Below are positions 46,579-50,394 of a stretch of DNA of 64,000 nucleotides, piece by piece. The translations under genes were made by a program, and so were the position numbers. Numbering within the stretch: the stretch's first letter is position 1; each line of letters starts with the position of its first letter. The stretch comes from Halorubrum sodomense (GTDB taxonomy: Archaea; Halobacteriota; Halobacteria; Halobacteriales; Haloferacaceae). The stretch is taken from positions 372,001-436,000 of the forward strand of contig NZ_FOYN01000001.1 of assembly GCF_900111935.1 (NCBI RefSeq), read 5' to 3'. The notes under the pieces were generated by a model that was not told the DNA's origin, searched no databases, and worked only from the letters and a program-made list of their open reading frames with translations.

Positions 46579-46773
46579 TTAGGCGTGGTTCGCCGCCTGC
46601 GCCTTCTTCTGCGTGACGTAGCCGGCGATGCGGTTGCGGACGCCCTTCGACTCGACGGTGGTCAGGGCGGTGACGCTCTCCTTGTTCGTCTCGAAGTCGG
46701 TGTTGAACGAGTCGGGGTACCGCTCCAGCAGGACGGTCCCGAGCTGCTTGATGTACTTGGGTTTGATGGCCAT
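46579..46773 (-). CDS. rps17e: 30S ribosomal protein S17e
   Basis: The 64-residue protein starts MAIKPKYIKQLGTVLLERYP and has DFETNKESVTALTTVESKGV and RNRIAGYVTQKK, the full S17e sequence. It stands alone between a permease and the DUF447 gene. Confidence 0.97.
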   Translation of the reverse strand: MAIKPKYIKQLGTVLLERYPDSFNTDFETNKESVTALTTVESKGVRNRIAGYVTQKKAQAANHA

Positions 46774-46881: not shown

Positions 46882-47514
46882 TCAGGACCGGTCGCGCTCC
46901 CGCCAGCCGGTCGCCTCGTCGATCCGCGCGAACGCCTCGCGCTCGGCCGGTCCGCCGCAGCGTTCCACCACGTCCGCGAAGTACTCCAGTCGCTCCAGTA
47001 GCTCGTCGGCGTCGAACGCCGGCACGTCTAGCCGCGAGGCGGCCACCGTGGCGTCGACGACCGCGCCGAACCCGCGGTTCACCGTCGGCACGCGCTCGGT
47101 CACGACCTCCGACTCGACCGGCGACAGCGCCCACGTCCGGACCGTGGTGTCGCCCTCGGTCTCGACCGCGACCTCTCCGACATCGACCTCGACCCACGCG
47201 TCGGCGCTCGGGAGGACCGCCGCGTCGACTTCCCGGACCGTCAGCGCTGCGTCGACGAACGTCCGCGGGTCGACGGTGAACTGGACCACGCCGCCGCCGC
47301 GCTCGGTGAAGTTCCGCCACGTGCGAGTGCGTCCGTAGGTTCGCGCGGTGACGGGACCGTCGGGGTCGTCCGGCGCGTGAAGTCCCAGCGCCGCGACGTT
47401 CCACCGGTCGTTCGGGCCGCGCGTCGTCACGACGGATTCGGTGACGCCGCGGAGCGGGACCGGCCAGCCGTCGGGGACGACGCCGGAGGGGTCTGCCCCC
47501 CGTTCGTCGCTCAC
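46882..47514 (-). CDS. DUF447-family flavoprotein-like protein
   Basis: The 210-residue protein has GVTESVVTTRGPNDRWNVAALG near the start, TYGRTRTWRNF and AVLPSADAWVEV, as in the DUF447 family, which has an FMN-binding split-barrel-like fold. Its GTG start overlaps the stop of the CitG-type gene by 4 bp, so it is the last gene of a coupled four-gene unit with cofD. In methylotrophs DUF447 and CitG homologues are linked to methanofuran and tetrahydromethanopterin genes (from memory). The reaction here is unknown. Confidence 0.87.
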   Translation of the reverse strand: MSDERGADPSGVVPDGWPVPLRGVTESVVTTRGPNDRWNVAALGLHAPDDPDGPVTARTYGRTRTWRNFTERGGGVVQFTVDPRTFVDAALTVREVDAAVLPSADAWVEVDVGEVAVETEGDTTVRTWALSPVESEVVTERVPTVNRGFGAVVDATVAASRLDVPAFDADELLERLEYFADVVERCGGPAEREAFARIDEATGWRERDRS

Positions 47515-48521
47515 GGCGCCACCTCCGCGCCCCGTCGGAGCGCGACGAACAGCGCCGCGCAGGTGAGGTCGGCGGTCGTCCCGGGGTTTATTCCCTCGTC
47601 GACGAACGCCTCCGCGAGCACCTCCGCGGCGGCGAGGTCGGCCCCGTGAACGGCCTCTGCCGGGACCGCGTCGACGCCGCCGATGCCGTCCGGTCCCGCC
47701 GACTCCACTCCCAGCAGCGCCGCCGCCCGCGCGCTCGCCTCGCGGGCCGTCTCCGCCCCCTGCGTCGACGCGACCAGCGTGTCGGGCCCCGCCGCGAGCA
47801 GTCCCAGGAACGCCCGCGCGGCCCGGTCCGCGAGGGGCCCCTCGTCGGTCAGGATCCACTCGGCCGCGCGGAACGTCCGCGGGAACCCCTCGGTCCACTC
47901 CGCGGCGTTGCGGTCTGGGACGCGGTTCGCCTCCGCCGAATCGGTCGCCTCCGCCGAATCACTCGGCGCCGCGGACAGCGCCAGCACGTCGCGCAGGGTC
48001 ATCTCGCGCTCGCAGACGGCGGGCTCGGCGTCGCCTCCGCGGCGCACGTCGAGGTCGTCGGCGCCCGGCGGCGGGTCGTCGACCGCGACGTCGACGACCT
48101 CGAACGCGCGGTAGAAGGCGACCGCGTCGTCGACGGTCGTCGCCCGGCAGACCGCGTCGACGCCGGCGGGCGAGAGTTCGCGGTCGGAGTCCGCTGCCGC
48201 CCGTACCAACGGGACCAGGAGCAGCAGACAGCCGAACTGCGTGTTCGTGCGCGCGCGCTCGGCCATCCCGGAGACGGCGCGCTCGAAGGCGCCGCCGACC
48301 GATGCGACCTCGTCTCCGGGACCCTCGCCCGCCGCCAGTTCGAGCCCCTCTCGGGCGCCGACCGCGCCGCCGAGGAACGACTCGAACCGCAGGTCGTCGA
48401 GGTCGCGACGCCGGTCGACGTTCCCCGGCTTCGGCGTGCCGGCCACCTCTACCAGGAGCGCCAGCGTCGCGTCGTCGACGGGGTCGGTGGGTCGCCGGCC
48501 CCCTCGCGCGTCCCGGCTCAC
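47511..48521 (-). CDS. CitG-type (triphosphoribosyl-dephospho-CoA synthase-like) protein
   Basis: The 336-residue protein matches the CitG/MdcB fold: VEVAGTPKPGNVDRRRDLDD near residue 25, FGCLLLLVPLV near 97 and NPGTTADLTCAALFVALR near the end, with binding residues kept. Studied CitG makes the prosthetic-group precursor of citrate lyase, but no lyase genes are present, so the archaeal form probably has another product. The GTG start overlaps the upstream gene by 4 bp. Two short acidic inserts lie near residues 185-200. Confidence 0.88.
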   Translation of the reverse strand: MSRDARGGRRPTDPVDDATLALLVEVAGTPKPGNVDRRRDLDDLRFESFLGGAVGAREGLELAAGEGPGDEVASVGGAFERAVSGMAERARTNTQFGCLLLLVPLVRAAADSDRELSPAGVDAVCRATTVDDAVAFYRAFEVVDVAVDDPPPGADDLDVRRGGDAEPAVCEREMTLRDVLALSAAPSDSAEATDSAEANRVPDRNAAEWTEGFPRTFRAAEWILTDEGPLADRAARAFLGLLAAGPDTLVASTQGAETAREASARAAALLGVESAGPDGIGGVDAVPAEAVHGADLAAAEVLAEAFVDEGINPGTTADLTCAALFVALRRGAEVAP

Positions 48522-49345
48522 GGTCTCGCCTCCCGTTCGGGATCCGCCTTGTCGCCGCCCCTCGACACCGTCCCCGAACGCCACGCCTCGACCGCGTCAC
48601 CGACGCGCGCGAGGGCGGGCGGGTCCTCCGTCGGGCGGCCGACGCTCACCGCGTCCGCGCCGTACGCGGCGTACTCCGCGACGGTCTCCCGGCCGCGAAC
48701 GCCGTTGTTGGCGACGAGCGTCAGGTCAGCGAGGCCGTCCCCGTCGCCCCTCTCGGGCGCCGCGTCGACCGCCGTCGCGATATCGGCGATCACCGCCTCC
48801 GAGTCCATCGCGTCGACGTGGAGCCAGTCCGCGCCGGCGTCCGCGGCGGTCTCCGCGACCGCGACGAGGTCGACACCGGGGACCTCGGCGCGGACCTTCA
48901 CGCTCGTCGTCGCGTCCGTCTCGGCCGCGGCGGCGACGTACCGCGCGAGGCGACCGGGATCGCGGAGGAGGGACTCGCCGCAGCCGACCGCGCGCAGTTC
49001 GGGCTGCCGGCAGTGGGCGTTGATCTCACAGACCGCGCCGCGGTCGGCGCAGACCTTCGCCGCTTCGCGGACCGGACCCCGGGTCGCGCTCCGGACGTTG
49101 ATCCCGGGTCGAACCGGCGCGTCCGCGAGCGCGTCGAGCTGATCGGCGGCGAAGGCGAGCGGGTCGGCGGGGAGGAACTCGTCTCGCCCGCGCGAGACGA
49201 GGTCCCGGGCGGCCGCCCGGCTCACCGGGTCGATCGCGACCCCGCCGAGGAGCGCGACGTCGACGTGGTCGGCCGCGGCGCGGGCCCACTCGGCGTCCGC
49301 GGCCCCGCTGAGGCTCGCGGCGACGAGGAGGGGTCCCCGGGTCAC
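48518..49345 (-). CDS. Dihydrouridine-synthase-like TIM-barrel flavoprotein
   Basis: The 275-residue protein has a TIM barrel with the Dus-type motif [20 protein letters not shown] near residue 125 and a phosphate-binding [20 protein letters not shown] near 215. In tRNA dihydrouridine synthases the active-site Cys lies in the NAHCRQ segment and is kept. It may act on tRNA or be an archaeal relative with another substrate. It overlaps cofD (upstream) and the CitG gene by 4 bp each. Confidence 0.82.
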
Positions 49346-50394
49346 TTCCCACCCCCCCGCGGAGCCCGGGAAGCCGGCGCGTCGCCGGCGACCGCTTCCA
49401 GGGCGCGCTCGCAGGCCAGAGCGACGCGCTCGGCGTCGTCCGCGTCGTCGATCCGCGTGTCTGTGCGCTCGACGTGGCGGTCGAGGTCGGTCCGGTCCGC
49501 CTCGTCGAGGACGAACGCGTCCGCGAAGGGGTACGCCTCCGCGACGCCCGCCGTCGACGGTTCGCGGCCGACGCCCGACATCAGCTCCGCCGCCGGCCCG
49601 GAGAACACCTCGTCGCCGACGAACGGCGAGACGGCGACCACCGGCGTCTCCCGGAGCGCGCGCTCGAAGCCGGGCAGCGCCAGCATCGGCCCGAGGCTCG
49701 TCACGGGGTTCGAGGGACCGATCACGACCGGGTCCGCGAGCGCCTCGACGACCGCGTCGGTCGGCTCGGCGTCGTCCGCGCCTCGGAACTCCACGTCGGC
49801 GACCGGCGGCTCGCCGCGGCGCGCGACCCAGTACGCCTGGAAGTGGAGCGTCTCGCCGCCCTCGGTGTGGATCAGCGTCGCGACCGGCTCGTCGGACATC
49901 GGGAGGAGGTCGACGTCGAGGTCGAACGCGTCCGCGAGGACTCGGACCGCTTCGGTGAGCGACTTCCCCTCGTCGAGCAGGCTCGTGCGCGTGAGGTGGA
50001 CCGCGCGGTCGCGGTCGCCGATCTCCATGAACTCACCGACCGCCGAGAACCGCCGCCAGCGGGCGAGCTCGCGGCCCGCGGTCTGTACCGCGTCGTCGAG
50101 GTAGCGGGGAGCGCCCGGCTCGCCCTCGATCGCGTCCCCGGCCGCGGCCGCGAGTCGGGAGAGCTCCTCGTGGGTCGCGGTCGTGTCGCCGTCGATCCCC
50201 CACCACGTCTCGCGGTCGAGGACGCCGCCGCCCGCGAACAGCACGGTGTCGACGTCGGGGCAGACGAGGTGGCCGCCGATCTCGACGTCGTCGCCCGTGT
50301 TGGCGACGACCGCGGTCTCGGCCGGGTCCCACACCCGAGCCGCGCCGTCGAGGAGCTTCGGCGTGCCCGTCCCCCCGGCGAGGAAGGTTACCAT
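49342..50394 (-). CDS. cofD: 2-phospho-L-lactate transferase
   Basis: CofD joins a phospholactyl-type group to the deazaflavin Fo to make F420-0. The 350-residue protein begins [20 protein letters not shown] and has [19 protein letters not shown] near residue 222 and [18 protein letters not shown] near 38. It is the first gene of a four-gene overlapping operon. Other F420 genes (CofC, CofE, CofG/H) are elsewhere. Confidence 0.95.

Follow-up and report, generated by a model that had tools for sequence, protein, structure and literature searches.

A CitG-like and DUF447 gene pair probably contributes to a methanopterin-type carrier for methionine synthesis in haloarchaea

A stretch of 64,000 nucleotides from Halorubrum sodomense (the window; assembly GCF_900111935.1, contig NZ_FOYN01000001.1, positions 372,001 to 436,000) carries four overlapping genes, encoding CofD of coenzyme F420 synthesis, a Dus-like protein, a CitG-like protein and a DUF447 protein. 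This arrangement raises the question of what CitG and DUF447 make, and whether their product is shared with CofD. A first-pass annotation of the window had proposed a common product of all four genes, perhaps a one-carbon (C1) carrier or a modified F420. The C1 carrier was found to be the best reading, for CitG and DUF447 acting with MptG, Mer and the split MetE; the remarks of that annotation on a non-citrate-lyase CitG and on a link to methylotroph genes also held, while the product shared by four genes and the modified F420 were not supported. On the genomic evidence, the task of CitG and DUF447 is probably side-chain synthesis for a methanopterin-type carrier, which Mer and split MetE would use for the methyl group of methionine. 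This reading rests on the families to which the proteins were assigned, on their joint loss, on the gene clusters shared with Mer, MptG and split MetE, and on the phylogeny of CitG.

Within the window, the four genes run head to tail on the minus strand in the order cofD (49342-50394), the Dus-like gene (48518-49345), the citG-like gene of the MptG-associated type (47511-48521) and the DUF447 gene (46882-47514), followed downstream by the gene for the 64-amino-acid ribosomal protein S17e (46579-46773, minus strand; called from its reading frame and start codon). As first described, all three junctions are 4-bp overlaps, each exactly GTGA on the minus strand (49342-49345, 48518-48521 and 47511-47514), in which the start codon of the next gene overlaps the preceding stop. 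This arrangement is not due to chance, because 98 of the 111 Halobacteriota genomes that encode both CitG and DUF447 have the two genes next to each other in the same direction (a count drawn from two tables); the exceptions were 12 genomes of family f10 and 1 of family f18. Across 119 Halobacteriota genomes, DUF447 was present in 114 and CitG in 113. The linkage of citG to cofD also extends beyond haloarchaea: of the 9 non-haloarchaeal loci opened, 4 (L073, L075, L076 and L077) had CofD upstream of CitG at a distance of at most 3 kb, and Dus preceded CitG in L071, L072, L074, L077 and L079. On a 987-kb plasmid of Natrinema thermotolerans (CP031304.1), cofD-dus and citG-DUF447-S17e were found at 644664-661191 (L164), and MptG at 486253-487275.

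Three haloarchaeal genomes (G008, G049 and G099) lacked both CitG and DUF447, yet retained cofD, dus and S17e in order. The site is empty in G008 and G049, where S17e directly follows dus. In G099 (L067, 5764-6864), an open reading frame resembling deoxyhypusine synthase, identified by eye, replaces citG-DUF447 between dus and S17e, and tblastn of this gap detected no remnants of citG or DUF447. All 23 genomes of the family encode CofD, these three among them, and no co-loss of CofD with CitG or DUF447 was found among them. In the control genome of Sulfolobus acidocaldarius, CitG, DUF447 and MptG were present, with no match to CofD, Mch or Mer. Joint loss of CitG and DUF447 while CofD and Dus are kept, together with this Sulfolobus gene complement, speaks against a product common to all four genes. 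The four-gene unit is not one single pathway.

The Dus-like protein, a TIM-barrel protein of the MJ0144 type, is probably a bystander of the module, since its gene stays with cofD when citG-DUF447 is gone and is missing from L200, where cofD-citG-DUF447 is otherwise intact. Its match to Pfam Dus was marginal (24.6 against a cut-off of 20.4), and it fell below the cut-off of TIGR00736 (124.3 against 218.7 bits). CofD, the 2-phospho-L-lactate transferase of F420 synthesis, exceeded the TIGR01819 equivalog cut-off (381.5 against 257.45 bits). Its retention without citG-DUF447 places cofD outside the pterin module proper; it supplies the electron carrier of Mer. The tie of citG-DUF447 to cofD is thus indirect, because Mer, the proposed user of the carrier, is F420-dependent.

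To which genes CitG is more closely bound was apparent from its losses, with absence called in assemblies that were mostly 98-100% complete. CitG was absent from 9 of 391 haloarchaea. Six of these also lacked MptG (G008, G049, G099, G401, G457 and G481), and three retained it (G404, G440 and G394). MptG was detected in 142 of 145 haloarchaea, the three without it being exactly G008, G049 and G099, and no CitG-positive haloarchaeon lacked MptG among 145 checked. The haloarchaeal tally was thus 145 genomes with both, 6 with neither, 3 with MptG only and none with CitG only (Fisher p = 5e-9, ignoring phylogeny). The module was probably lost at least four times independently, because the losers are spread over four genera, and two of these (g7 and g2) also hold genomes with the full set.

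Loss extended to Mer and to the split MetE. In the family of 23 genomes, Mer above the cut-off was missing from G008, G049 and G099; it was also missing from G242, a highly fragmented assembly that is 92% complete. It was predicted beforehand that Mer would accompany MptG in the six further CitG losers, and this held without exception: Mer was detected in 9 of 9 MptG-positive and 0 of 6 MptG-negative genomes, three of the latter six having been known to lack Mer before the prediction. The split MetE catalytic subunit above the cut-off was absent only from G008, G049 and G099 among the 23 genomes. No close MetE was found in G099 (best match, 43 bits). In genus g5, G008 (C1:805396-806394) and G049 (C1:1839645-1840643) carry a divergent relative of the MetE catalytic subunit, scoring 324-327 bits against a cut-off of 406.

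The same families are physically clustered in haloarchaea. Three clusters in two genomes of genus g96 stand apart from cofD and have the two genes of split MetE divergent from Mer-CitG-DUF447-MptG. The order npdG-Mer-DUF447-MptG-MetE-MetE occurs in G404 and on a plasmid of Halobellus limi (L163; NZ_CP031312.1, 18369-24005), and appears to represent a mobile form of the module from which CitG is missing. G394 carries Mer-DUF447-MptG-MetE-MetE, and G440 carries Mer-DUF447-MptG. In G017 (L199, 7817-12050), a region of 4.3 kb holds MptG, a YfcE-type phosphodiesterase, cofE and mer, a second case in which F420 genes are physically linked to the module. Collectively, these clusters join the proposed genes for making the carrier to an F420 reductase, an F420-dependent methylene reductase and methionine synthase. 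In none of the haloarchaeal clusters opened could a fae, fhc or mtdB gene be recognised.

Relatives of the module accompany annotated methanopterin genes in bacteria, in loci drawn from plasmid sequences. Plasmids of Azospirillum brasilense and Phyllobacterium zundukense carry annotated tetrahydromethanopterin (H4MPT)/methylofuran clusters with MptG, mtdB, mch, a RimK ligase, CitG, fae and DUF447, and without cofD. Plasmids of Cupriavidus, Paraburkholderia and Sinorhizobium have MptG, CitG and DUF447 within about 10 kb. A scan of genome contigs with DUF447 returned matches in Methanosarcinales and their relatives only, with none in bacteria. The dephospho-H4MPT genes of methylotrophs such as Methylosinus and Methylorubrum (mch-orf5-orf7-fae and orf19-orf20) likewise cluster MptG with CitG-like and DUF447 genes; from the gene order given in PMC3615186, matched to the bacterial clusters, orf7 may be CitG and orf20 DUF447. 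What distinguishes the haloarchaeal module from these methylotroph clusters is its tie to F420-dependent Mer and split MetE. The H4MPT pathway of the methanogens Methanosarcina and Methanocaldococcus has the same MptG, CitG and DUF447, with CitG and DUF447 adjacent and often beside Dus and cofD; unlike methanogens, haloarchaea have no methanogenesis and are reported to use folate.

MptG is the beta-RFAP synthase that catalyses the first committed step of methanopterin synthesis. In that pathway, the ribofuranose made by MptG is reductively opened to ribitol, and a ribosyl phosphate is then added. CitG enzymes form a ribosyl O-glycoside from ATP. The DUF447 protein of the window scored above both family cut-offs (DUF447_N, 80.4 bits; DUF447_C, 63 bits). 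Its AlphaFold2 model (predicted local distance difference test score, 90) matched 2IML by Foldseek with an E value of 7.7e-15, and also matched 2NR4, bound to flavin mononucleotide (FMN), and 2PTF, with FMN. DUF447 structures from Archaeoglobus, Methanosarcina and Methanothermobacter are FMN-binding. DUF447 is probably a flavin reductase, because these FMN-bound structures share the FMN split-barrel fold of the modelled window protein.

In the sequence of steps that we propose, MptG would make an aryl-ribofuranose precursor, and DUF447 would use FMN to perform a reduction on this product, most likely the opening of the ribofuranose to ribitol. CitG would then add a ribosyl phosphate unit to the ribitol, forming the same type of bond as its citrate-lyase relatives. 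The finished carrier would take up a methylene group, which Mer would reduce to methyl with F420H2, and split MetE would hand this methyl from the carrier to homocysteine. Ring opening is favoured over pterin reduction as the role of DUF447, since a dedicated dihydromethanopterin reductase, DmrA, exists in methylotrophs such as M. extorquens (PMC6193120), yet DUF447 sits in bacterial H4MPT clusters. The methanopterin-like nature of the carrier, the individual reactions and the part played in methionine synthesis are inferred.

Other products were considered for CitG. It is extremely unlikely that CitG makes the triphosphoribosyl-dephospho-CoA prosthetic group known from citrate lyase and malonate decarboxylase. 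The window protein does share the PF01874 fold (180.3 bits, cut-off 27) and the conserved core positions (K31-P-G, N93-T, D247, G314 and A317-D318) with the CitG/MdcB synthases. However, it scored only 14.6-16.9 bits against the TIGR03125, TIGR03132 and NF002315 equivalogs, whose cut-offs are 272-282 bits. In the phylogenetic tree, the haloarchaeal, methanogen and bacterial H4MPT-cluster CitG proteins were split from citrate-lyase CitG and MdcB by a branch with 100/100 support; the deep branches of this tree are long, and the order inside the methanopterin-side group is unsure. CitG also has other gene partners: no citD/E/F/X-like gene was seen beside citG, and CitG tracks MptG. The citrate-lyase function was rejected on the scores and the tree. 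Compared with its relatives, the window CitG has about 50 additional residues, apparently owing to a low-complexity, acidic insert that contains a DSAEA repeat (47880-48110), and several genomes of the same genus show split PF01874 matches for CitG. A joint role of CitG and DUF447 with CofD in modifying or maturing F420 is likewise very unlikely. The gene overlap with cofD in haloarchaea and the proximity of cofD to citG in several other archaea would fit such a role; the retention of CofD where CitG and DUF447 are lost, on which this candidate was rejected, the absence of CofD from Sulfolobus acidocaldarius and the lack of cofD in the annotated bacterial clusters speak against it.

Two further explanations concern the module as a whole. 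Parallel shedding, by lineages living on amino-acid-rich media, of different pathways to which CitG, DUF447, MptG, Mer and split MetE would belong is quite unlikely. The lack of a close MetE in G099 is compatible with methionine auxotrophy, but shedding would explain neither the tight clusters of these families in unrelated haloarchaea nor the sparing of CofD and Mch, and the genomes of three losers are of ordinary size (3.2-3.9 Mb). It is also unlikely, although less so, that the carrier is based on folate, to which MptG, DUF447 and CitG would attach a ribosyl-type decoration for the sole use of Mer and split MetE. The aryl-C-ribofuranoside produced by MptG-family enzymes takes the place of p-aminobenzoylglutamate, so that the folate tail would be exchanged and not decorated. 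In favour of a decorated folate are the persistence of Mch without the module, a FolD relative near one cluster (L194) and the reported use of tetrahydrofolate by haloarchaea (PMC8305020).

Several points weigh against a methanopterin-type carrier in haloarchaea. The MptG gene of the window's genome lies outside the four-gene unit (G000, C9:679668-680663), and its product exceeded the TIGR00144 subfamily cut-off (162.7 against 113.5 bits); however, haloarchaeal MptG proteins scored 158-175 (window genome, 172.3) against the NF040726 equivalog cut-off of 328. This shortfall is no evidence against haloarchaeal MptG, because MptG of the bacterial H4MPT clusters falls under NF040726 in the same way (164-177 against 328), and the two groups score alike on both NCBI models. 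NF040726 does not discriminate in this case. CitG is not strictly required, as G404, G440 and G394 carry Mer-DUF447-MptG without CitG anywhere, and nothing obvious stands in for it in the CitG-less clusters, judged by gene calling only. These genomes fit the proposed order of steps, since a carrier without its last sugar could still work. Mch was considered as the partner of the carrier, but each of the 23 genomes in the family has it, losers included; it does not track the module and was rejected. The model also leaves the loading of methylene onto the carrier without explanation, and parallel loss of several pathways in methionine auxotrophs may account for the losers. Finally, haloarchaea have been described as using tetrahydrofolate and lacking methanopterin-specific enzymes, HVO_2628 as probably not a true MptG, and haloarchaeal Mer as working with folate (Pfeiffer and Dyall-Smith 2021, PMC8305020).

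The genome evidence appears to say otherwise than that annotation review, both on the absence of methanopterin-specific enzymes from haloarchaea and on Mer. Among the papers available to it, a literature search found nothing on methanopterin in haloarchaea besides PMC8305020, and no paper linking DUF447 to H4MPT. A 2026 paper assigns DUF447 proteins to the formation of cannulae in Pyrodictiaceae (PMC13140500); this role is doubtful, because the DUF447 family studied here is FMN-binding and methanopterin-associated. Price et al. (2021, PMC7857596) examined Halobacteria and found that nearly all of them have split MetE as their only methionine synthase; they predicted methyl-tetrahydrofolate or another methyl pterin as its donor. 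The two-subunit enzyme and the haloarchaeal order are the same as those considered here; that study left the methyl pterin open, and split MetE is now linked to MptG, CitG, DUF447 and Mer.

The methanopterin-type carrier would fill the place of the methyl pterin predicted as donor for split MetE (PMC7857596). There is, in our judgement, an even chance that most haloarchaea run two C1 carriers in parallel, with tetrahydrofolate used to make purines and thymidylate and a previously undescribed pterin of the methanopterin type serving only the methyl group of methionine, via F420-dependent Mer and split MetE, and that G404, G440 and G394 make a shortened form without the ribosyl added by CitG. 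If this assignment is right, the annotation of these CitG proteins as triphosphoribosyl-dephospho-CoA synthases is likely an over-annotation. CitG and DUF447 would gain concrete roles in methanopterin side-chain synthesis, which could be tested in Haloferax volcanii, a genetically tractable aerobe, rather than in a strict anaerobe. Haloarchaea would then make a cofactor that they are currently said not to make.

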